Shown here piece after piece: positions 2,225-53,642 of a DNA stretch of 64,000 nucleotides. The stretch spans positions 1 through 64,000 of the forward strand of contig CACJYR010000002.1 of the NCBI GenBank assembly GCA_902597675.1, given 5' to 3'. The stretch is from an uncultured Pelagibacteraceae bacterium (GTDB lineage: Bacteria; Pseudomonadota; Alphaproteobacteria; Pelagibacterales; Pelagibacteraceae). Position numbers and translations under genes: made by a program. Every line of letters begins with the position of its first letter. Position 1 is the stretch's first letter. The notes under the pieces are model-generated. The model ran no database searches. It saw nothing but the letters and a program-made list of their open reading frames with translations, and was not told the origin of the DNA.

Positions 2225-4875
2225 GTTAATTTTAAATTTTAAATCTAAAAACACTAAAAAAATTAAAAATCCCAAAAATCTTTTAGGAGGTAAAGGTGCT
2301 AATTTATCAGAAATGGGAAGAATGGGTCTCCCAGTTCCGCCTGGATTTACAATTTCAACAAAAGTCTGTGATCTTTTTTACCAAAATAAAAAGAGATTGA
2401 ATTCTTCATTGATAAATCAAATTAAAAAAGAGTTAAAGATAATTGAGAAAGATGTGAAAAAAAAATTTGGAGATCTAAAAAATCCACTTTTATTATCTGT
2501 GAGATCTGGTGCTAGAGTATCTATGCCAGGTATGATGGATACAATACTTAATCTTGGTTTGAATGATAAAACTGTTAAAGCACTAGCTAACAAAACCTCT
2601 AATGGAAGATTTGCCAAAGATAGTTATAGAAGATTTATTCAAATGTATGGAAATGTTGTTCTAGGAGTAGAAAGTTACCATTTTGAGGAACTAATAGAAA
2701 ATTATAAATTAACTAAAGGAGTTTTGTTGGATACAGATCTTGATGAAGATGATTGGGATGGCTTGATAAAAGATTTTAAAAATATTGTTAAAGAAAAAAC
2801 TAAAAAAGAATTTCCTCAAGATGTTTATAAGCAATTATTTGGAGCAATAAGCGCAGTATTTTTATCATGGGAAAGTAATAGGGCTAAAATTTACAGAAAA
2901 TTAAATCAGATACCATCTGAGTGGGGAACAGCAGTTAATGTACAATCTATGGTTTTTGGAAATATGGGAAATGATTGTGCGACAGGAGTTGTTTTTACAA
3001 GAAATCCCTCAGATGGATCAAATGATATTTATGGGGAGTATTTAATTAATGCTCAAGGAGAAGATGTCGTAGCAGGAACAAGAACACCACAATATATTAC
3101 AAAGAAAGCTAAACGAGAGGCAAAAGTTGAGGCACTTTCTATGGAAGAGTCTATGCCAAAAGTTTATTTAGAGCTTCATAAAATTTTAAAAAAGTTAGAA
3201 GTGCATTACAAAGATATGCAAGATGTAGAATTTACAGTTGAGAATGAGAAATTATGGATCCTACAAACTAGGTCAGGTAAAAGAACTGCAAAATCAGCTG
3301 TTAAGATTGCTGTAGATATGGTTAAAGAAAAATTAATTTCAAAAAAACAAGCTATTTTAAGAATTGATCCTAATTCATTAGACACTTTGTTACACCCGAC
3401 TTTAGATGAAAAAAGTTCTTTGGAAATAATTGCTAATGGTTTGCCTGCTTCACCAGGAGCTGCTAGTGGAAAAGTAGTGTTCACATCTGAAGAAGCTGAA
3501 AGACTTAACAATATGATGCAAGATGTAATATTAGTTAGAGTAGAAACTTCCCCAGAGGATATTCAGGGTATGCATGCCGCCAAAGGGATATTAACTGCAA
3601 GGGGGGGGAATGACAAGTCATGCAGCTGTTGTTGCAAGAGGAATGGGAAGACCATGTGTTTCTGGTTCGAGTGAAATCGATATTGATTATGAGAAAAAAA
3701 TTTTTAAGACTGCTTCAGTAGAAATTAAAGAGGGAGATGTTATTACAATTGATGGCTCTTCTGGAAGAATTATTTTAGGAAGTGTTCCGACAGTCAAACC
3801 TGAAATTTCAGGTGACTTTTCAAAATTAATGAGTTGGGCTGATACTATCAGAAAACTTAAAGTACGAACAAATGCAGAAACTCCATTAGACACAAAAGTT
3901 GCAAGAGATTTTGGGGCAGAGGGAATAGGTTTATGTAGAACGGAGCATATGTTTTTTGATGAAGAAAGAATCATTTCTGTACGAGAGATGATACTTTCTA
4001 AAACTAAAGAAGACAGGTTAAAAGCACTCAAGAAACTCTTACCTCATCAAAAAAAGGATTTTATAGATATATTCAAGATTATGCATGAGTTACCGGTTAC
4101 AGTTCGTTTACTTGATCCCCCATTACATGAGTTTCTACCAAAATCTGAAAAAGAAATTTCAGAGGTTGCAGAAGTTGTTGGTTTAAGTGTGAAAGAAGTA
4201 AAATCTAGGATTGATGAGCTTCATGAGCAAAATCCAATGCTTGGACACAGAGGTTGTAGATTAGCTATTTCATTCCCTGAAATTTACGAAATGCAATGTG
4301 AGGCAATTTTTAAAGCCTTGTCAGAGCTTAAAAAAAATAATCAAAAGTTTGCATTTCCTGAAATAATGATACCACTTGTATCGACACAGGCAGAGATAAA
4401 AATAATGAAAGATCTTGTAATCAACACTGCAAGAAAAGTACAAAAAGAAAATAAAGTAAAAATTAAATTTTTAGTTGGAACGATGATTGAGTTGCCAAGA
4501 GCAGCAATTAAAGCAAAAGATATCTCGAAACATGCTGAGTTTTTTAGCTTTGGGACAAATGATTTAACGCAAACCACTTTTGGTATTAGTAGAGATGATA
4601 GTGGAAAATTTCTACATGACTATATTGAAAACAAGATTTTTTCAATCGATCCATTTATTTCAATAGATGAAGGTGTAGAAGATTTAATTAAGATAGCTGT
4701 TACTGAAGGAAAAAAACAAAATAAAAAAATTAAGTTAGGTATTTGCGGTGAACACGGAGGTGATCCTAAAAGTATATATTTTTGCTCAAAAATAGGTCTT
4801 AATTACGTTTCATGTTCTCCATATAGAGTTCCAATAGCAAGACTGGCTGCAGCCCAGGCTGAAATAAATAAATAG
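2217..4875 (+). CDS. ppdK: Pyruvate, phosphate dikinase, split in two ORFs (2217-3674 and 3610-4875) by an apparent +1 frameshift in a G8 run at 3601-3608
   Basis: ORF1 carries GGKGANLSEM and ends in-frame at GILTARGG; ORF2 continues MTSHAAVVARGMGRPCVSG with the catalytic-His region, ending in the PEP-binding barrel (GICGEHGGDP). Confidence 0.9.
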
Positions 4876-42135: not shown

Positions 42136-42192
42136 ATGAGCCCATCAATGCAGTATTGTATAAGCATCATTGCATCTGTTAAGTGCAAATAG
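42136..42192 (+). CDS. Possible leader peptide/uORF (18 aa, MSPSMQYCISIIASVKCK)
   Basis: ATG preceded by purine-rich RBS-like agagaggaaaattct; stops just before the phosphatase gene. Confidence 0.3.
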   Translation: MSPSMQYCISIIASVKCK

Positions 42193-43553
42193 AAATTAGG
42201 CGCATGAATAATGAATTCCATCAACTTCAAAAATATCAAAAAATTAACGAATATCAATTTATAAATAGTATGTTTTTTGGCGCGAAAAAAAAGGAAACCA
42301 CTAAAGTAGATGACACTAGTAGTAAAGATTTAGAGTTAGTGACTAAAATGAATCAAGAGTTTGCTAAGTCTCTTGATTTAAAAGAAACATTAAATAATTC
42401 ATTAGAATTAATTATAAAAAGAATAAATGCACAAGCTGCTAATATCTTTTTAATAGATGAAAAAAATCAATCATTCCAATGTATCGCATCAAAACACCAA
42501 GCATACCTCGAAGATTTTGAAATATCTATCACCCAAGGAGTAATGGGTAAGGCAGCGGTGATGAAGAAATGTATTAGAGTTGGCGATGTGCGTAAAGATG
42601 TAAGAGAAATTGCTGAATTTTATTTTGATTTAGATAATAAAACAAATTTTACAACATATTCAGTTTTATGTTCACCATTAATTGTTTCAGACGAATGTAT
42701 TGGAGTTATTCATTGCCTGAATAAAAAAACAAACAACAAATTATTTGAGGAGAATGATAGAAAACTTTTAGAAACTTTGTCTGGACCTGCAGCATTAGCA
42801 ATTAATAATGCCAAGATGGCTAAAGATTTAATAGATAAGAATAGAATGCAAAAAGAAATTGAAATTGTTGGTGAGATACAAAAAACTTTACTATCTCAAA
42901 ATCAAAAAGAAAATTTTCCAATAGCAGGTATAAACATCCCAGCTAAAGTTGTTTCAGGAGACTTTTATAACTTTGCAGAACTATCTGAAGGAGTTTATGG
43001 TTTTGGTGTTGCTGATGTGTCGGGAAAAGGAATTAAATCTTCTTTGTTAATGTCGAAGGCATCAAGTTTATATAGATGTTTAAGTAAAACAAATTTTTCT
43101 GCAGCAGAGTTGTTAAATATTTTAAATTCAGAAATTTGTGAGACAACATCAAGAGGGATGTTTGTAACAATGTTGATTGGAATTTATGATAGCAACAAAA
43201 AAGAATTAACTTTGGCTAATGCAGGACATGAACCACCATTAATTTATTCTAACGATGGAAGCTTTTCTAATTTTGAAGAAGCAGGACCACCTTTAGGTAT
43301 CGCTCCTAAATTTAAATTTAAAGAAACCAAAATTAATTTTTCTAACAGCTCAATGTATATATTCACTGATGGTATTACAGAAATAAAAGATACCAAGGGC
43401 AACATGTTAGAGTCTGATGGATTTAAAAATTATATTAAAAAGTATCAACAAAACCCAAATCACGAACGATTAAATAAAATTGTTGATGATATAATTAAAT
43501 CGGGACGAATTCAAAAAGATGATCTGACTATTGTTGTTGTTGATTCACTATAA
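42183..43553 (+). CDS. GAF-domain SpoIIE/PP2C-type serine phosphatase (RsbU-like); real start may be ATG 42204
   Basis: GAF region (AANIFLIDEKNQSFQC...GVMGKAAVMKK) then PP2C VVSGDFYNFAE, GVADVSGKGIKSSLLMSKASS, YIFTDGITE, DDLTIVVV. Confidence 0.87.
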   Translation: MQIEIRRMNNEFHQLQKYQKINEYQFINSMFFGAKKKETTKVDDTSSKDLELVTKMNQEFAKSLDLKETLNNSLELIIKRINAQAANIFLIDEKNQSFQCIASKHQAYLEDFEISITQGVMGKAAVMKKCIRVGDVRKDVREIAEFYFDLDNKTNFTTYSVLCSPLIVSDECIGVIHCLNKKTNNKLFEENDRKLLETLSGPAALAINNAKMAKDLIDKNRMQKEIEIVGEIQKTLLSQNQKENFPIAGINIPAKVVSGDFYNFAELSEGVYGFGVADVSGKGIKSSLLMSKASSLYRCLSKTNFSAAELLNILNSEICETTSRGMFVTMLIGIYDSNKKELTLANAGHEPPLIYSNDGSFSNFEEAGPPLGIAPKFKFKETKINFSNSSMYIFTDGITEIKDTKGNMLESDGFKNYIKKYQQNPNHERLNKIVDDIIKSGRIQKDDLTIVVVDSL

Positions 43554-43867: not shown

Positions 43868-44076
43868 AACAAAAAAAAGTTTTTATGTTATAAAAACTTG
43901 GTAAAAGATTATTTTTTATATTTTTTTTTATAAAATTCGCTTTAAAAGTGAAAAATTAGTAAAAATTTTCAAAAAAAAAGATCAATTCTTAATTGAAAAC
44001 AAAATTTCATTGATTTTTTGCAACCTATAACCCTTCAAATTAAAATTTGATTAAATATAATTTTAAAAATTAATCT

Positions 44077-44400
44077 CTCTAACACAAAATAGATAACCTC
44101 TAACACAAAAAGATGAATTTTAGTAAAAATTAGTTTTTTGTTGATTTTATTGACTTTTTTAATTTTTGAAAAATGAAAAAAACTCTAACACAATTAAAAA
44201 AAAACTCTAACACAAGTGAAATTTTTCTTTTGTGTTAGAATAATGCCAGCCTGTAAAATTTAACTTTAAAATAGAATTTAGACAAAAGTGGCTGTTTTAT
44301 TAGCTTTTTTGAAATTATTACCCATTTTGAACACAATATTTACTTTTGTGTTAGACTAAATTTCAATTTTGTGTTAGAGATTCGCTAAATTGTGTTAGAG
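44077..44400. repeat. Array of eight ~11-bp motifs CTCTAACACAA (44077-44087, 44098-44108, 44183-44193, 44205-44215) and reverse complement TTGTGTTAGA(G) (44230-44239, 44346-44355, 44369-44379, 44390-44400)
   Basis: Direct reading of intergenic region 43868-44420; four forward copies followed by four inverted copies. Confidence 0.93.
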
Positions 44401-44420
44401 AAAAAACTTATAATTATTTT

Positions 44421-46865
44421 ATGAGCGATCAAGACGACGATAAAAAAAATATAAATGAAGATACAACTGACAATGAGTCAGTAAATCAACCTTCAGTTGA
44501 TGAAAATAATCAACCTGAAGGTGCAGATTCTACTAATAATGACTCATCTGGTGATGAAAACAAAAATAATGAGCAAAATAATGACCAATCAGATGTTACG
44601 GCAGCTTCTTCTGAAAAAAAAGAGGAAAATAAAAATTTAGAAACTCAAATTAGCGAGTCAAACGCTGAAGAAAGCAATGTGCAACAAAGTTTTGATGCTT
44701 CTGATGAAAAAAAAGATGAAGATAATGGTTCTGGGCACCAAGTTATACATAGAAAAGATGGTCGACTACATATTTATGTTAGACAAGATAAATACAAGGG
44801 TGAATTAAAGTCAAAAAATTGGGTTGGTAGACTTTATATTGATGGAAAACAAAAAATTTCATCGTCAGGTACAACAAATTTAGAAGAAGCAATTCCAATT
44901 TTGGAAAAATGGTTTGATGATATTCAAAAAGAGAGTGAAAGATTAAAAAATCAAACTAGTGAAACACAAGTTAATGAAAATCAAAATGTAACCAATGAGA
45001 ATATTTCACCAACAGAGGATAAACAGAAAGTTGAAACACCAATTGTTGAAACTCAAACTCAAAATCAGGAACCAACTGCTCCCGTTGCATCTAATGAAAG
45101 CACGGAACTAAATAAGCAAGATCAATTAAAAAGTAAAATAACAAATATTTTTGGAAAATTAAAAGATATTAAATTAAAAAAACCATCTTTTGCAAATAAT
45201 TTAAGTAAATCTTCTTTAAATAATTCAAAAATTGGTAATTTAAAATCAAAGTTCGAAAGTTTTTTCAAATCTAAGTTAGGTAAATCAAGTGTTCAGGGCG
45301 AAGAAATATTAGGAGTAGAACTTGCAAATAAAGAAATTAGATTAGTTCAAGTATCAAGCAACAAAGCAAATCAATGGGTATTAGATAAGTTTCATATTCA
45401 TCCTGTGGATGTTAGCGATGATAGTGCTCCTATTGAAAATGCTGATAAATTTTCTGAAGAGCTTAGATTAGCTATACAAAAGTATAAAATATCATCACCA
45501 AACGTTGCGATATCCATTCCTGTAACAAGTGCAATTATTAGAGTTGTAACAGCTCCACTTATGAAAGATGAGGAGTTAAATAAAGCAATTGAAACTAATT
45601 CATTGTGGGAAAATTTAGTCCAACTTACAGATAGTTTAGAGGATTATTCTATTTTTCATCAAGTGATTAATAGAAATCAAAAAGACAATACAATGGATAT
45701 CTTATTTGTGGCATCAAAATTAACAGATATAAATAGTTATACTTCAATTATAAAGAACGCAGGTTTAAACCCAGTAATTATTGATGTTAAATGTTTTGCC
45801 TTAAAGTCAGCGGTAGATCAATCTAATCAACTTACAAATAAAGTTGAGGATGCAAATTTAACTGCAGTTTTAGAGTTTGGATTAGATGAAAATTATCTAA
45901 TGATATTATATGACAATAATCCAATAATTACTGATATTTTTATCAGAGGCCAAGATAGAAAAATTTTACAAGAGTCTGATGATGCCGAGGAAAAAGAAGG
46001 CTTAGTTAGAAGATATGTTACTCAAGTCAAACAAGCTATTCAGGATTTTGAGACAAAATATGAAAAAAGAATTCGAAATATAAAAGTCGTATCAGATATT
46101 GATAATGTAGAGGAATATTTAGGAAATTTTAGAAAAAATTTAATGAATGTTGGTTTTAATACTTTTGATCCAACTGAAGGGTTAAAAATTCCAAGTCAAT
46201 TTCAACAAGCATTAGATAACAGAAATAACAGATCTTATTTATCAACTTCAGTTGGTTTGGCTTTTAGAAAACTTGACGTTTTTGGCTATTATAAATTTGT
46301 TACTGCAGTTAAAAATATTAATTTGTTGCCTGATAGATCAAGTGTCATGAAACAAAAAAAGATGAAGGCAATTTCTGGTTTTGCCTTCAAAGGGATAACA
46401 GCTGCAGTTGCAGGAATTTATTTAATATTATTTGGCTTATCTTTTTGGAATATTTTTTCATATAACGCTAAATTAAAAGATTATGAAAATGTAAAAGCTG
46501 AACATGCAAAATTTGTCAAAGAAAAGAAAGTTGTTTCCAAAGAACTTAAATTAATTAATACAACTCTTAAGTTAAGTAAAACATTAAAATCAAATAAAGA
46601 ATTAACTTATAGAATTTTAGCCCAGGTGGCATCTAGTGTTCCAAAAAGAGTAAAATTTGATCAAGTAGAATTTAATGGATCTAATACACTAACAATTCAA
46701 GGTGTTGCTGCAAGTGACCAGGATATTTTAAAATTTATTGAAAACTTAAGTAAACAAAAATTAGTTCAACAAGCCTCATTGTCATCTATGAAATTGCCTA
46801 GGGGAAATACTGGTGGTGCAACAATGAAAGGTTTTAGAGTATTTGTAAAAATTAAAAGAGGTTAA
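44421..46865 (+). CDS. PilM/PilN-like fusion (MshI-like) with long N-terminal low-complexity region and extra small domain
   Basis: EEILGVELANKEIRLVQVS (PilM-like), INLLPDRSSVMKQKK...TM...coiled coil (PilN-like). Confidence 0.82.
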   Translation: MSDQDDDKKNINEDTTDNESVNQPSVDENNQPEGADSTNNDSSGDENKNNEQNNDQSDVTAASSEKKEENKNLETQISESNAEESNVQQSFDASDEKKDEDNGSGHQVIHRKDGRLHIYVRQDKYKGELKSKNWVGRLYIDGKQKISSSGTTNLEEAIPILEKWFDDIQKESERLKNQTSETQVNENQNVTNENISPTEDKQKVETPIVETQTQNQEPTAPVASNESTELNKQDQLKSKITNIFGKLKDIKLKKPSFANNLSKSSLNNSKIGNLKSKFESFFKSKLGKSSVQGEEILGVELANKEIRLVQVSSNKANQWVLDKFHIHPVDVSDDSAPIENADKFSEELRLAIQKYKISSPNVAISIPVTSAIIRVVTAPLMKDEELNKAIETNSLWENLVQLTDSLEDYSIFHQVINRNQKDNTMDILFVASKLTDINSYTSIIKNAGLNPVIIDVKCFALKSAVDQSNQLTNKVEDANLTAVLEFGLDENYLMILYDNNPIITDIFIRGQDRKILQESDDAEEKEGLVRRYVTQVKQAIQDFETKYEKRIRNIKVVSDIDNVEEYLGNFRKNLMNVGFNTFDPTEGLKIPSQFQQALDNRNNRSYLSTSVGLAFRKLDVFGYYKFVTAVKNINLLPDRSSVMKQKKMKAISGFAFKGITAAVAGIYLILFGLSFWNIFSYNAKLKDYENVKAEHAKFVKEKKVVSKELKLINTTLKLSKTLKSNKELTYRILAQVASSVPKRVKFDQVEFNGSNTLTIQGVAASDQDILKFIENLSKQKLVQQASLSSMKLPRGNTGGATMKGFRVFVKIKRG

Positions 46866-46867
46866 CA

Positions 46868-47551
46868 ATGGACATGAATATAGATTTAAAAAATTTGAAT
46901 ATGTCTGATATTAAAGATCAGATCACTAAGTTAGCTGATAAAAAAACTTTAACAAAAATTGGAATCATTGTTGGTTCTATAGTTTTATTTTTAATCATTT
47001 ATTACGCAATTTTAAATCCGATGGTAAAAACTAGAAAAGTAAAATTAGACGACATGAATTTAAAAAAACAAGAAACGCAACAATTCATTAGTGAAATAAA
47101 TGCAATGAAAGCAAAAATTAAAAAACTCAAACCACAATATCAAAGATATTCAACTTTGTTTCACTCTAAGGCTGAAGTTGAGGGTTTGTATCAAACATTA
47201 AGTGAATATGCTGGTCAAAATGACTTGGTAATTACTTCAATAGAAAAAAAACAAATTAAAGAAGTTTTAAAGGCAACAGCACTTGCCCAAGCAGCTGGAA
47301 AAAAAGCAAAAAAGGTTAAAAAAACTCAGGTCAAAAGTGTAAAAAATATCGCTTATTATCTGATCCCAGTAGATTTTGAAATTGGTGGCAATTTTATTGG
47401 TTATATTAAATTTAAAAGAGCTCTTTCCCTTTCTCAAAAGATGTTAAACTTTGACAAAGAGTCTATACAAGTGGTAAAAGGGGATTCAACTGGGACGATA
47501 AAAGTAAAAGGAACGTTAACTATAGTGGGGTTACCAGATGAATTTTTTTAG
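46868..47551 (+). CDS. pilO: PilO-like pilus assembly protein
   Basis: Single N-terminal TM plus coiled coil plus PilO-like C-terminus; gene order. Confidence 0.75.
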   Translation: MDMNIDLKNLNMSDIKDQITKLADKKTLTKIGIIVGSIVLFLIIYYAILNPMVKTRKVKLDDMNLKKQETQQFISEINAMKAKIKKLKPQYQRYSTLFHSKAEVEGLYQTLSEYAGQNDLVITSIEKKQIKEVLKATALAQAAGKKAKKVKKTQVKSVKNIAYYLIPVDFEIGGNFIGYIKFKRALSLSQKMLNFDKESIQVVKGDSTGTIKVKGTLTIVGLPDEFF

Positions 47552-48044
47552 AATAGTACTTATTTCTTTACTCTTTATATTTACATCAAATTTAGCGATG
47601 GCTGATAATCATACTAAAGAACAAGACATTATAGATAAGGCAAAAGAAATAAATAAGAAAATAAAAGAAAAACAAGCAAACTCTCAATCAAATATTTCGT
47701 CAGAAATTGGTAATGAAGAACCATTGCCGTTGAATGATCCTTTTGTCGGGGATAGCTCTCTTACAGGTGGTAGTACTTTGATGATGAGTGATCCCGAGGA
47801 AGCAAAAAACGAAATGAGTTTATATAAATTCAAGTTAGTTGGCGTAATGTCCTCGGATAAGGATGATGGCTTTGCATCATTAATTAATGCTAGTGGTGAA
47901 GTAATTACATTAAGCTTATTTGAGGAATTAAGTCCAGGTGTAAAATTAATCGGATTAAATAATAGAGAAGCAGTTTTTGAAAAAAATCAAGATTCTCTTT
48001 TAGTAATAAATTTTAAAAATCAGATTATAGAGAGAAAAAGATAA
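47538..48044 (+). CDS. pilP: PilP-like pilus assembly protein
   Basis: Signal peptide; YKFKLVGVMSSDKDDGFASLINASGEVITLSLFEELSPGVKLIGLNNREAVFEKN; gene order. Confidence 0.7.
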   Translation: MNFFRIVLISLLFIFTSNLAMADNHTKEQDIIDKAKEINKKIKEKQANSQSNISSEIGNEEPLPLNDPFVGDSSLTGGSTLMMSDPEEAKNEMSLYKFKLVGVMSSDKDDGFASLINASGEVITLSLFEELSPGVKLIGLNNREAVFEKNQDSLLVINFKNQIIERKR

Positions 48045-48046
48045 TT

Positions 48047-49603
48047 ATGAGTTTTCAAAAAAAAATATCATTTCTTATTCTACCTTTATTTATTTTATTT
48101 TTATCTGGATGTGCTGATAAATTGGCAAAAAAATCTAAGTCATTCAAGCATGACACTCCACTTATAAAAACTGATGTAAAACAGCTTGGGAAAAAGGAAT
48201 TAAATACTAGTGCTTCAATGGGACCAGTGCCTGTTGATGGTGATGTTGTCAAACTAAAAAAAAGAAAACAATTATCTTCTGTTAAAGAAAGAAATTATCT
48301 ATTGATTTCAGAAGAATTCACTTCCTTAAAACAGAATGTTTCGTTTAAATTCCAGGCACTAGATTTTAAAGAGGCGATGAGATTGATGGCAGAGATCGGC
48401 AATATAAATATTTTAGTTGGTGATGAAGTTGCAGGCTCTGTATCAGCTGAATTAGATAATGTTCCTTGGGACAAAGCATTTAACGCTTTATTGGATTTAA
48501 AAAGTTATGCAGCAGATATAGATGTTGCTAGTAATATTATTAGAGTTTCAACACCTGCAAATTTAACTTCACAAGAAAGTTACAAATCTGCTAGAGCGTC
48601 AGCAGTTAAAAAGAAGGTTGAAATTGAAGATTCTGTTGAACCAATTATATCTGAGATTTTTAGACTTTATTATATAACTCCAGCTGAAGCCAAAGCCACT
48701 ATTTCAGAATTATTTACATCAGTGGGAACAGGTGGAAATTTCATTCCAATACAGGTAACAGAGGAAGCTACCACAAGGTCTATAATTGTAAGAGGGAAAG
48801 AAAAAGATTTAGATATAGTGGATAAAGTTATTAGAGAAATTGATAAGAGAACTAAACAAGTTTTAATTGAAGCATTTATTGTTGAGGCCAGTTCAACGTT
48901 TGAGCAAAATTTAGGAAAACGACTTGGTTTTGCATACACGAGAAATCGTGAGAGAGTTGGTGGTACTCAAGGAGGAAGTTCCATTGGTAATGCCGGAGGT
49001 AGTTCAGCAACTATAGGAGACTCTACAGGAGGATTCACTAGCGGTGCTGGAACTGATAACTTACTTAATTTAGGATCAGCCGCTTCAACAGCTGGAATTG
49101 GTATATTGAGAAGAACAGGTTCAGCAGTTTTAAAACTAGAACTTGATGCATTAGAAAATGAAGGTTTGTCCAAAACTGTTTCTAATCCAAAATTGTTTAC
49201 ATTGGATAATCAACAAGCAAGTATTAACCAAGGGGAAACTATTTATATTGATGGTGGAGAAGGAGAAGATAAGGCTGTAGATGCCTCATTGAAGTTAATT
49301 GTTACACCAAATATTATTGGAGATGGAAATGTTATGCTTCAAATTCAAGTAAATAACGACACACCTAATAGATCTAACCCTGGAACACCTGGGGTTAACA
49401 AAATGGAGATTAATACTAAGTTATTGGTAGCTGATGGAGATATTGTTGTAATTGGTGGTATTAAGAAAAATAATGTTGCTAACTCAAAAGGAGGAGTTCC
49501 GGGTGTTTCAAAATTACCTGTCGTTGGAAAAGCTTTGAGCGGAACGTCTAAATCTGACACGATGAATGAGTTATTGGTATTTATTGCACCAAGGATTTTA
49601 TAA
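48047..49603 (+). CDS. pilQ: Type IV pilus secretin (PilQ/MshL-like), predicted lipoprotein
   Basis: Lipobox LSGC; secretin signature VIGGIKKNNVANSKGGVPGVSKLPVVGKALSG...LLVFIAPRI. Confidence 0.9.
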   Translation: MSFQKKISFLILPLFILFLSGCADKLAKKSKSFKHDTPLIKTDVKQLGKKELNTSASMGPVPVDGDVVKLKKRKQLSSVKERNYLLISEEFTSLKQNVSFKFQALDFKEAMRLMAEIGNINILVGDEVAGSVSAELDNVPWDKAFNALLDLKSYAADIDVASNIIRVSTPANLTSQESYKSARASAVKKKVEIEDSVEPIISEIFRLYYITPAEAKATISELFTSVGTGGNFIPIQVTEEATTRSIIVRGKEKDLDIVDKVIREIDKRTKQVLIEAFIVEASSTFEQNLGKRLGFAYTRNRERVGGTQGGSSIGNAGGSSATIGDSTGGFTSGAGTDNLLNLGSAASTAGIGILRRTGSAVLKLELDALENEGLSKTVSNPKLFTLDNQQASINQGETIYIDGGEGEDKAVDASLKLIVTPNIIGDGNVMLQIQVNNDTPNRSNPGTPGVNKMEINTKLLVADGDIVVIGGIKKNNVANSKGGVPGVSKLPVVGKALSGTSKSDTMNELLVFIAPRIL

Positions 49604-51354
49604 TGCTTAAGATTAGTAGAGAAAGTGAAATTAATTTAGTCAATGTATTAATTGATAACGATATTATTTCTGGAAAAGATTTAATCAATATTAAAAAAGT
49701 GAGTTCAGAAAATAATAAATCTCAAATCGAATCTATTTTTGAATTAAAGCTTACGGATGAACAAAAGATAATTAATTTATTAATTAAAGAGCAAAATTTA
49801 GAAACTATTGATTTGAAAAAAGTTGAAATTACTGATGAAGTTAAAACTGTATTACCTTCAAATTACATCAAAGTAAATTTTGTAGCCCCTTTTAAGATTG
49901 ATGGAAAGACTTTACATATCGCTATTCCTGATAGTTCAAAACTTGGATTAATGAGAAACCTAAAAGCCATTACTAAAAAAAATATTGAATTACATGCTGC
50001 AAAAATTACAGATATTTCAGAATATATAGAAAGATTATCAAGTGAAACTGATGAAGTAACTATCGCCTCAATCCGAGATGAAAACAGAAAAAAGATTAAA
50101 ACTTTTGAATCTGATTTAGGAGAAGCGGGTGAAGTTTTAGAAAAGCCACCTGAAGAAGATATTGAAGCTATAGAAAATGAGTCGGAGGTAATAAAATTTA
50201 GTACCGCAGTAGTAGCAGAAGCTATCAAAATGGGAGTGAGTGATATTCACATTGAACCTTATAGATTTAGTTCGAGAGTGAGATATCGATTAGACGGAAT
50301 GTTACAAGAGCAAGAGCAATATAAACAATTTCTTCACGACAACTATGGTGCAGTGGTTACTCGATTTAAAATTATGGGTAAACTAGATATTGCAGAAAGA
50401 AGATTGCCACAAGACGGAGCTATCAATTTTAAGATAGATAATAAAGTAGTGGACTTACGATTATCAATATTACCAACAGCGAATAATGAAAGAATTGTTA
50501 TGCGTATCCTTAATAAGGATGCAGGTGATATCAAATTAGAACAATTAAATTTTGAGGAACAAGATTTAAAAAACCTAAGAAAAGCAATTCATAGTACTCA
50601 AGGATTGATATTAGTAACTGGCCCAACGGGATCTGGTAAATCAACTACTTTATATAGTATTTTAAAAGAGGTCAGCAAACCTCATTTAAATATTTTAACT
50701 GCTGAAGACCCTGTTGAATACGAATTAGATGGTGTAGGGCAGGTTCAAATTAAAGATCATATTGGATTAACTTTTGCCTCAGCATTAAGATCTTTTTTAA
50801 GACAAGACCCTGAAATTATTCTTGTTGGAGAGATGCGAGATAAAGAAACTGTTGATATTGGATTAAAAGCAGCATTAACGGGTCACTTAGTATTTAGTAC
50901 ACTTCATACAAATGATGCACCAAGCACAATTACTAGATTACAGAATATGGGAACACCTGATTATTTAATCAGTGCTGCAACGCAATTAGTTGTTGCGCAA
51001 AGATTGGCAAGAAAAAATTGTAAAGATTGTAGAGTGCCTGACGATGATGTTAATCCAAAAGTTCTACAAGATTTAGGATTTAGTGCCGAACAAGCATCGA
51101 GAGTTAAAGCTACTAAGGGCAAAGGGTGTGCTAAATGTAGTAATACTGGTTACAAAGGTCGACAAGGTATTTATGAAATTTTAGTAGTATCAAAACCACT
51201 TAAAGAAGCAATCTTAAGACAAGCTACTACACCAGAGTTAAGAGAAATTGGAATTAAAGAAGGTTTTCAAACGATGAAAGATATGGGGCGAAGACTAATT
51301 GCATCTGGAGAGCTTAATTTTAGAGAGTACGAAAGAGTTCTTTCAGGCGAGTAA
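49603..51354 (+). CDS. pilB: Type IV pilus assembly ATPase (PilB/MshE/GspE family)
   Basis: VTGPTGSGKSTTLYSIL, EDPVEYELDGVGQVQ, tetra-Cys CKDC...CAKC. Confidence 0.92.
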   Translation: MLKISRESEINLVNVLIDNDIISGKDLINIKKVSSENNKSQIESIFELKLTDEQKIINLLIKEQNLETIDLKKVEITDEVKTVLPSNYIKVNFVAPFKIDGKTLHIAIPDSSKLGLMRNLKAITKKNIELHAAKITDISEYIERLSSETDEVTIASIRDENRKKIKTFESDLGEAGEVLEKPPEEDIEAIENESEVIKFSTAVVAEAIKMGVSDIHIEPYRFSSRVRYRLDGMLQEQEQYKQFLHDNYGAVVTRFKIMGKLDIAERRLPQDGAINFKIDNKVVDLRLSILPTANNERIVMRILNKDAGDIKLEQLNFEEQDLKNLRKAIHSTQGLILVTGPTGSGKSTTLYSILKEVSKPHLNILTAEDPVEYELDGVGQVQIKDHIGLTFASALRSFLRQDPEIILVGEMRDKETVDIGLKAALTGHLVFSTLHTNDAPSTITRLQNMGTPDYLISAATQLVVAQRLARKNCKDCRVPDDDVNPKVLQDLGFSAEQASRVKATKGKGCAKCSNTGYKGRQGIYEILVVSKPLKEAILRQATTPELREIGIKEGFQTMKDMGRRLIASGELNFREYERVLSGE

Positions 51355-51356
51355 AA

Positions 51357-52589
51357 ATGGAAGCTTTCACTTATAAAGGAATTTCTGATGGGAAATACGT
51401 CGAGGGAGATATAGAAGCAATAAATCTTGATGAGGCTTCACATCTCTTAAAAGAAAAGAAAATAATAATCACAAATATTATTAAGTCTAAAAAAAAGGCA
51501 GCTGAAAAGAAGAAATCTAGTGGCTCCTCTCTTTTTGGTAGGAGTAAAAAAGTAAAAATAGAAGATATTCTAATATTTTCGAAGCAATTTGCGACTATGG
51601 TTAAGGCAGGTTTACCAATCCTTCAGGTATTAGCAATGTTGAGAGACCAGATGGAAAGTCAGGGGATCAAAGATATTATTGAAGATATACGAAAGAGCCT
51701 AGAGGGTGGAGTTAACTTATCAAAATGTTTTGAAAAATATCCTCAACATTTTGACAATGTTTATGTTAACTTGATTAAAGCAGGTGAAGCCAGTGGTAAA
51801 TTAGATGTTTTCTTACTTAAAATTGTAGAGTCACTTGAAAAGAAAGAAAAAATTAAGAAAAAAATTAAATCTGCTCTAATGTATCCAGCAATAATGTTTA
51901 CCGTAGCTATCACAGTTAGTGCTTTCATGTTAGTTAAAGTAGTTCCAGTATTTGCTAAAATGTATGATGGTATGGGTTTAGAACTGCCAGCTGCTACAGC
52001 AACAATTATGGCGATGAGTGACTTTTTAAGAGGAACAGGTGGAAAAGTTATTCTCTTTGGAAGTATAATTGGTTTTTTTGGATTCAGGTTTATTACAAAA
52101 AGAAATGCTGCAATTCGATTTAGATGGCACAGACAAGTTTTAAAATTACCATTGTTTGGAGATATGATTTTAAAATCTATGCTAGCTAGAATTTCATTAA
52201 TTATGGGAAATTTAAGTGCAGCAGGTGTTAACTTATTAGAGAGTTTAGAGATTGCAAAGTCTGTCAGCAATAATGATGTTGTAACAGACGCTTTAGAGAA
52301 TGTTAAAAAAGGAGTTTTCTCAGGAGATACATTAACGAAACTGTTTTTAAAAGAGCCATTGTTTCCTCCCACCTTTAGTCAATTGATTTCTGTTGGTGAG
52401 CAGACAGGTCAATTAGATGAAATGTTTAATTCAGTAGCTTCTTATTATGAGGAAGAATTTGATACCACTGTTGACAACATGTCTAGCTTAATTGAACCGA
52501 TTATGATTGTTTTTATGGGTGTAATGATTGGTGGACTAATGATAGCGATGTACTCACCAATATTCAACGTTGGTGCACTTATTAACTAG
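51357..52589 (+). CDS. pilC: Type IV pilus inner-membrane platform protein (PilC/MshG/GspF family)
   Basis: FSKQFATMVKAGLPILQVL, GeqTGQLDEMF, C-terminal TMs. Confidence 0.92.
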   Translation: MEAFTYKGISDGKYVEGDIEAINLDEASHLLKEKKIIITNIIKSKKKAAEKKKSSGSSLFGRSKKVKIEDILIFSKQFATMVKAGLPILQVLAMLRDQMESQGIKDIIEDIRKSLEGGVNLSKCFEKYPQHFDNVYVNLIKAGEASGKLDVFLLKIVESLEKKEKIKKKIKSALMYPAIMFTVAITVSAFMLVKVVPVFAKMYDGMGLELPAATATIMAMSDFLRGTGGKVILFGSIIGFFGFRFITKRNAAIRFRWHRQVLKLPLFGDMILKSMLARISLIMGNLSAAGVNLLESLEIAKSVSNNDVVTDALENVKKGVFSGDTLTKLFLKEPLFPPTFSQLISVGEQTGQLDEMFNSVASYYEEEFDTTVDNMSSLIEPIMIVFMGVMIGGLMIAMYSPIFNVGALIN

Positions 52590-52611: not shown

Positions 52612-53049
52612 TTATAATTTTTTAGTAAGTACTAAATTATTAATCCACGGTTTATCGCCTTCTTTAAATTTAATAGAATCCATTATTTCTTGAATAAAAA
52701 AAGTACCAAGGCCACCTGGTTTGACGTCATCAATCGCTCTATGTTTAACTTTACTTTTTTCAACTGGTTTTCCCTTATCAAAAAATGAAATTTCAAGTTC
52801 TTTATCTGTGCAAGAAATTCTAACTGCCATTCTATCTTGCGTGTCAGGATAATCTTTATAAGCGTGTTTAACAATATTTTGTGCCGCTTCAGCAATTGCT
52901 AAAACTAATTCTTCCCTTAATTCCTCATTAATTTTAAATTTCTCAAAAACTTCTCTTGAGAAACTTCTTACATCCTTCAAACTTGATGAATTTACTAAGA
53001 AATCTTTTTTTTCAGACAAATTTGTTGTATCCGCCACTTCAGTGTTCAT
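52612..53049 (-). CDS. Anti-sigma-factor-type serine kinase (RsbW/SpoIIAB-like HATPase)
   Basis: N box LAIAEAAQNIVKHAY, G box PGGLGTFFIQEIMD. Confidence 0.87.
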   Translation of the reverse strand: MNTEVADTTNLSEKKDFLVNSSSLKDVRSFSREVFEKFKINEELREELVLAIAEAAQNIVKHAYKDYPDTQDRMAVRISCTDKELEISFFDKGKPVEKSKVKHRAIDDVKPGGLGTFFIQEIMDSIKFKEGDKPWINNLVLTKKL

Positions 53050-53058
53050 TATCTCTAA

Positions 53059-53358
53059 TTACTCCAAATTTAAAATTTGCTCTAACTTTGCCATCATAAT
53101 CACTTTTAAAACAGATTTACTTACGTCTTTAACTATGAGTTTAGTTCCTTTCTCTAATGCCTTTTGATGACTTTCAATTAAAACTGATATGCCTGACGAG
53201 TCCATGTACTGAACATTACTTAAGTTTAAGTTTACATTTTTGCCAGCATCAATTAAAGGAAAAATAACTTCTTTCGCTCCCTCTGTTTTATCCATATCTA
53301 TCTCACCATCTAAAAATACAGTGCTAGCGTCGCCTTCTTCTGTTACTTTATATGTCAT
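53059..53358 (-). CDS. STAS-domain anti-anti-sigma factor-like protein
   Basis: VFLDGEIDMDKTE..., YMDSSGISVLIESHQKA (phosphorylatable Ser motif). Confidence 0.9.
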   Translation of the reverse strand: MTYKVTEEGDASTVFLDGEIDMDKTEGAKEVIFPLIDAGKNVNLNLSNVQYMDSSGISVLIESHQKALEKGTKLIVKDVSKSVLKVIMMAKLEQILNLE

Positions 53359-53642
53359 AGAAATTTCCTTGCCATTGCTAAAACTTTTTCAACTGGTTGA
53401 CTGACCTCTTTAAGTTCAACTTTAGTGTTTTTTTCTTTTGCTCTTTGATTACTTTCAACTATCACTGAAATTCCAGACGAGTCCATATATTGAACACCTT
53501 TTAAGTTCAAATGAACTTCCTTTCCAGAGTCAATAAGTGGGAAAACTACCTCTCTAACGTTGTCAGCAACATCCATATCTATCTCTCCATCTAGGAATAC
53601 TGTGCTAATATTTTCACTTTCAGTAACTTTAAATTTTATCAT
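53355..53642 (-). CDS. STAS-domain anti-anti-sigma factor-like protein (tandem paralogue)
   Basis: VFLDGEIDMDVADN..., YMDSSGISVIVESNQRA. Confidence 0.9.
   Translation of the reverse strand: MIKFKVTESENISTVFLDGEIDMDVADNVREVVFPLIDSGKEVHLNLKGVQYMDSSGISVIVESNQRAKEKNTKVELKEVSQPVEKVLAMARKFL

Follow-up and report, generated by a model that had tools for sequence, protein, structure and literature searches.

The pil Locus and Its Upstream Array

The window, a stretch of 64,000 nucleotides from the genome of an uncultured Pelagibacteraceae bacterium, contains a type IV pilus (pil) operon whose first gene is directly preceded by an array of eight short sites; two ORFs, a large one resembling PilY1 and one resembling prepilin peptidases, lie upstream of the array. 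The features of this region are as follows:

44077–44108, + strand: site pair 1, CTCTAACACAA at 44077 and 44098, 21 bp apart
44138–44163, + strand: gap element 1, TTGTTGATTTTATTGACTTTTTTAA, a possible IHF/bending site, within the 85-bp gap
44183–44215, + strand: site pair 2, at 44183 and 44205, 22 bp apart
44230–44239, − strand: reverse site TTGTGTTAGA, followed by A rather than G
44284–44311, + strand: gap element 2, a diverged copy AAAAGTGGCTGTTTTATTAGCTTTTTTG, within the 116-bp gap, recognized by alignment only
44346–44400, − strand: three reverse sites TTGTGTTAGA at 44346, 44369, and 44390, 23 and 21 bp apart
44421–46865, + strand: 814-aa PilM-PilN fusion
44736–44933, + strand: putative array-binding domain of this fusion, aa 106–171 (~65 aa)
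46868–52589, + strand: PilO-like protein, a small ORF in the PilP position, secretin PilQ, ATPase PilB, and PilC

The gene that was called pilM-like in the preliminary description does encode PilM, but in fact as a PilM-PilN fusion with an additional N-terminal domain. Both PF11104 (PilM_2, 76.6 bits) and PF05137 (PilN, 38.6 bits) are matched above the Pfam cut-offs, and genes with secretin, T2SSE, and T2SSF matches follow downstream. From its N-terminus the fusion consists of an acidic tail (aa 1–100), the domain (aa ~106–171), a linker, the actin-like PilM part, a predicted transmembrane (TM) helix (aa ~654–679), and PilN, with the PilN domain at aa 732–798. It resembles the PilM and PilN proteins of type IV pili in its PilM_2 and PilN domains and in its pilM-O-P-Q-B-C-like operon but differs from them in that the two are fused and are preceded by the acidic tail and an integrase-type domain. 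The short PilM forms of SAR11 (see below) look PilN-fused as well.

Exact TCTAACACAA occurs eight times between 44078 and 44399, with 10-mer starts at 44078, 44099, 44184, and 44206 on the + strand and at 44230, 44346, 44369, and 44390 on the − strand, which gives start-to-start distances along the array of 21, 85, 22, 24, 116, 23, and 21 bp. All eight copies are indeed present where they had been reported upstream of the pilM-like gene, the final one ending ~20 bp short of the start codon at 44421, and the earlier impression that the full motif does not recur in the window can be extended: a scan of the bacterium's own 997,873-bp genome (81% complete) recovered these eight exact copies only, so that the motif is not common genome-wide. 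The reversed control pattern of TCTAACACAA has six matches in the same genome, and at the genome-wide rate the Poisson probability of at least eight copies of TCTAACACAA in 553 bp is ~4e-24. When two mismatches were allowed, the window contained 121 matches vs. 112 expected, i.e., background, and only the exact array is, therefore, meaningful. Since the motif is restricted to one locus, a DNA uptake sequence was rejected. A replication origin at the array was rejected as well, the cumulative GC skew showing no turn there.

Conservation and Co-occurrence of Array and Domain

The region upstream of pilM was compared among the genomes of relatives, i.e., uncultured Pelagibacteraceae (SAR11). A protein search splits the genus into bacteria with a long PilM, carrying the N-terminal extension, and those with a short PilM, in which it is missing. 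Four to eight exact copies of the motif are present in all of the 90 distinct domain-bearing loci (out of 119 distinct long loci in total) whose sequence extends 1.3 kb or more upstream of the domain, and the seven long loci without copies are all situated on contigs cut within 460 bp upstream. The array is absent from all 40 untruncated pilM loci without the domain (L207–L237, L240–L248), and in the domain-less genomes checked the motif copies are single and scattered. With related loci treated as independent, this co-occurrence of domain and array has a Fisher P of 2e-34. Arrays were also found upstream of the long PilM in other genera of the family (L176–L179, L187, L197, L202). The array is thus conserved upstream of pilM in these relatives, and it is found only where the downstream PilM-PilN carries the ~65-aa N-terminal domain. 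One genome with five motif copies (G055) was rejected as an array-bearing case, as its PilM is short and its copies are single and scattered.

In the commonest plan, the sites are located at about −353, −332, −246, and −225 relative to the ATG on one strand and at −200, −74, −51, and −30 on the other. The mirror symmetry noted earlier for the array holds in the window but not as a general feature: all sites have a single orientation in L053, L059, L065, and L202, and other mixtures of orientations occur in L049, L052, and L177. Numerous assemblies break off within the array or directly beside it (L003, L008, L021, L025, L029, L032, L036, L096, L102), and, consequently, the number of copies may be under-counted in public contigs. 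Two loci have unusual arrangements: L080 (G154) has a second, diverged array further upstream, at −886 to −580 from the ATG, and L081 (G166) an expanded array, mostly in one direction, with 50/90-bp spacing.

Helical Spacing and a Candidate Bending Element

Neighboring sites on the same strand are mostly 20–23 bp apart (mode 21), and opposed sites mostly 24–25 or 34–35 bp. Across the loci, which are related so that these counts are not independent, the shorter gap measures 85–87 bp, and the long gaps fall into classes of 115–119, 125–129, 138–139, 149–153, and 161 bp, i.e., steps of ~11 bp, with only 1 out of 91 long gaps lying between classes. Such discrete classes are the expected outcome of selection for one helical face. 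The phase coherence of all same-strand pairs, again from related and thus not independent loci, peaks at a period of 10.6–10.7 bp (R 0.75). As the orientation of the sites is not kept in the relatives, what is conserved are protein sites, in their identity and in their helical spacing on one face of the DNA, and not a mirror or hairpin structure.

These data bear on both earlier suggestions about the function of the array. The conservation, the ~11-bp gap steps, and the phase peak agree with a regulator that binds cooperatively to one face of the DNA and loops it; this suggestion missed, however, that the next gene itself encodes the likely binder and that this binder is linked to integrases. 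The other suggestion was that the array acts as RNA, forming alternative hairpins in the pilM leader. The array in the window does fold far better than shuffled sequences (z −6.9), but it does so because it is mirror-symmetric, and the best sigma70-like match in the window (44034–44061) lies upstream of the array, which also speaks for a role as RNA. However, the motif is kept in the relatives with single-orientation arrays, which cannot form these hairpins, helical phasing is a property of DNA, and in the basal forms (see below) sites are found both within the promoter and upstream of it. This weakens the suggestion to such an extent that we regard a function as RNA as highly improbable.

Alignment of the long gaps revealed a second conserved block, TTGATTTTAYTnRCTTTTTT. 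Exact TTGATTTTANT is present in 72 out of 96 forward (++) gaps, with 0.45 expected from shuffles, and in 31 out of 75 reverse (−−) gaps, with 0.3 expected. In the forward gaps listed it starts 31–33 bp after a site, and in the reverse gaps usually 61–63 or ~50 bp past a site, one turn apart. In its reverse complement, the element shows AATCAA together with an A tract, reminiscent of IHF sites when compared with the WATCAANNNNTTR consensus with A tract, although the TTR is usually missing. The presence of IHF in the genome was considered as well: genes for IhfA-, IhfB-, and HU-like proteins were found, with scores under the equivalog cut-offs. The gap element is, therefore, probably a bending site, and the bends between the clusters of sites may be made by IHF bound to it.

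The N-Terminal Domain Is Shared With Integrases

The domain forms the one strongly conserved island of the extension, being mostly 78–95% identical among the PilM proteins of the genus search; the long PilM proteins as a whole are 61–76% identical to that of the window. Searches with the PilM domain gave no match in Pfam, including no arm-binding family at E ≤ 1, which counts against an arm-binding nature, and nothing significant in PHROGs or in a PDB profile search. An AlphaFold2 model (pLDDT 86, pTM 0.74) predicts a beta sheet and, C-terminal to it, a long helix; a Foldseek search with this model found no significant PDB match (best E 0.87) or viral match, which also counts against it. The arm-binding (AB) domains of Tn916-type integrases consist of three strands and a helix, and AB domains are highly variable and at times missed by Pfam (PMC8138268).

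One of the 61 matches within the genus was not a PilM but a 423-aa tyrosine recombinase (L051; Phage_integrase Pfam match, E 1e-7), which carries the domain at its N-terminus, the position taken by arm-binding domains, 60% identical to the PilM domain; this N-terminus, too, matches no Pfam arm-binding family at E ≤ 1. Two further integrases (L174 and L175), one from the same genus and one from another genus of the family, also carry the domain and are 67–69% identical to L051 over their full length. By sequence comparison, the domain is, hence, both conserved and shared with integrases. Searches for relatives of the integrase or the domain in an annotated phage collection, and for relatives of the integrase in IMG/VR, were negative. 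In all three loci, the integrase gene (int) begins directly behind a 5′ tRNA-Leu fragment and has a tRNA-like gene after it, a setting of the kind into which integrases insert. In each of the three elements a serine-recombinase-like ORF adjoins, and the downstream region is closely similar in the three genomes.

When a site matrix derived from the PilM arrays alone (688 sites) was run over the 4.2–5.7 kb integrase loci, its top three matches (L051, L174) or top two matches (L175) all adjoined int. They are positioned at −56/−57 or −23/−24 from the int ATG, between the tRNA-Leu fragment and the start codon, or 37–79 bp beyond the downstream tRNA, and take the forms TTGTGTAAGAG, TTGTGTAAGAC, TTGTGTTATAC, and TATGTGTTAGAC. 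In all three loci these predicted sites flank the integrase gene in the manner of arm-type sites. Since the second group lies inside the element, beyond the tRNA, it is not claimed to mark the other end of the element. That the top matches of a PilM-derived matrix fall next to int is the strongest argument for regarding the domain and the motif as a protein and its site. Most of the integrase sites are TTGTGTAAGAG, one base off TTGTGTTAGAG, which counts against such a pairing. Nevertheless, the putative binding of the domain to the array sites TTGTGTTAGAG, as a cognate pair, is well supported on these indirect grounds.

Among known systems, the arm-binding domains and arm-type sites of tyrosine integrases come closest. 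As in lambda Int and Tn916 Int, an N-terminal domain with (here predicted) beta strands and one helix is accompanied by several short, non-palindromic sites in clusters that are split by likely sites for bending proteins, and, as for the tyrosine integrases of phages and ICEs, the homologous domain of the SAR11 integrases has matching sites flanking it. Unlike in lambda Int and Tn916 Int, the domain is carried by a pilus assembly protein and not by a recombinase, there is no core site and no recombination, and the 4–8 sites are two helical turns apart. The shared motif might suggest that the array is merely a decayed, attP-like remnant of an integrated element that has no present function. The sites are, however, letter-perfect among the relatives while the spacers hardly align, and the geometry is maintained in whole turns, so we see very little chance that this explanation is correct.

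The domain also occurs in five IMG/VR contigs (L089, positions 3983–4327, and L090–L093), which encode a protein of ~115 aa composed of the domain and a C-terminal hydrophobic helix, possibly membrane-anchored DNA-binding proteins of marine phages. No exact sites were found within the 5–8 kb around these genes, and pairs of TCTAACACAA are present in only 14 stretches in IMG/VR, none of which encodes the domain. Judged from the predicted proteins, a DNA-binding-type domain on a membrane anchor occurs twice, i.e., in PilM-PilN and in these phage proteins.

Evolutionary Origin of the Composite

In a tree of the PilM core, from which the domain was excluded, the long forms are basal in the family and one change leads to the short clade. 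One long form (L056, G084), which has both domain and sites, is nested within this short clade, so that parsimony requires two changes; the direction of change is tentative, as the tree results from a quick search and is rooted with a very distant outgroup. On this tree, the domain and the array are lost jointly and also come back jointly. The nearest outgroup found (L017, from another family) has neither. The most probable scenario is that an ancestral Pelagibacteraceae pilM would have gained a 5′ integrase arm-binding domain along with arm-type sites.

This joint loss and regain bears on the idea that a separate, trans-acting regulator binds the array while the PilM domain serves another purpose. 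A LytTR response regulator would be an example, since LytTR sites are direct repeats 21–22 bp apart, a spacing much like that of the paired direct repeats observed here. However, no PF04397 match was found in the bacterium's own genome (81% complete), in which the controls were detected, and a separate regulator would explain neither why the array and the PilM domain come and go together nor why arm-like copies occur beside integrases with the same domain. We consider it, therefore, very unlikely.

An Operator Bound by the First Product of Its Own Operon?

In the basal type, a TTGACA-17-TATTAT promoter has a site in its spacer. This is clearest in L177 (TTGACA-AATTTGTGTTAGAATTG-TATTAT-AACACAA), where one site fills the spacer and another touches the −10 box, and an overlap of sites and promoter can be directly read in L177, L197, and L049. 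For the subgroup to which the window belongs, the search yielded no convincing promoter overlapping the sites, which counts against an operator. It has been reported that integrases with arm sites overlapping their own promoter repress themselves (PMC2951348).

The array is probably the operator of the pil operon, bound by the N-terminal domain of the operon's first product. This reading is based on the co-occurrence of domain and array, the PilM tree, the kinship with integrases, the matrix matches, the helical phasing, the predicted fold, the precedent of integrase autoregulation, and the promoter overlap in L177, L197, and L049; the lack of sites elsewhere in the bacterium's own genome fits a self-directed binder. 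We envisage that the N-terminal domain would recognize TTGTGTTAGAG and that the PilN helix would anchor PilM-PilN in the inner membrane, the molecules filling the 4–8 sites on one face cooperatively. Bends in the two long gaps, perhaps made by IHF at TTGATTTTAYT, would join the clusters. By analogy with integrases, surplus or unassembled PilM-PilN would then repress pil transcription, i.e., a negative feedback, which is likely given the sites lying over the promoter in the basal type; in the window's subgroup, where no such overlap was found, a tether or an activator would also be compatible with the data.

The KplE1 integrase gene intS offers a parallel, as its product binds arm-type sites overlapping its own promoter (PMC2951348), a binding that is inferred in our case, with the difference that the regulated product here would be a structural membrane protein together with a whole operon. 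With respect to membrane topology, the fusion is comparable to ToxR and CadC, in which a cytoplasmic DNA-binding domain (putative in PilM-PilN) is part of a protein that spans the inner membrane once and has a periplasmic domain. Unlike in ToxR and CadC, the putative DNA-binding domain is not of the winged-helix type, and it belongs to a component of the pilus machine.

Alternatively, binding of the domain to the array could mainly serve to keep the pil locus in place at the membrane-borne pilus machine, as a centromere-like anchor or an aid to transertion, with little effect on transcription. The putative binder is indeed membrane-anchored through its predicted TM helix, 7–8 sites per locus are many for a simple operator, the sites are confined to one locus, and the phage proteins combine the same domain with a hydrophobic helix alone. 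However, the sites lie directly upstream of pilM and, in the basal forms, inside a consensus promoter, as expected for a transcriptional operator, and no partner for segregation or positioning is known here. A tether with this main function seems to us unlikely. An extension of the operator reading, which we put forward only tentatively and with some doubt, is that the inner-membrane platform of the SAR11 type IV pilus is physically tied to the chromosome: PilM-PilN would wrap the bent, phased array of its own locus via the captured arm-binding domain of a phage integrase, and so make both transcription and the cellular position of the pil locus depend on the state of pilus assembly.

Operator-array autoregulation and the capture of mobile-element domains are each known already, and the open-licence PMC papers searched describe neither the array nor a PilM-integrase fusion nor pil regulation in SAR11. 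The composite of a pilus assembly protein, an integrase-type putative DNA-binding domain, and matching sites is undescribed in the open-licence papers searched. If our interpretation is correct, it would represent, within the open-licence literature searched, the first integrase arm-binding domain at work outside a recombinase and the first pilus assembly protein to bind DNA in a sequence-specific manner. SAR11 bacteria belong to the most abundant cells of the ocean and have streamlined genomes with few regulators; that they retain an array of several sites plus a domain dedicated to a single operon implies that selection is strong.

Other potentially regulatory genes surround the pil operon. 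Upstream, a GAF-SpoIIE phosphatase is encoded at 42183–43553, and after pilC, on the other strand (52612–53642), two STAS-like ORFs and an anti-sigma-kinase-like ORF were recognized by eye; together these may possibly form a partner-switching set around the operon.
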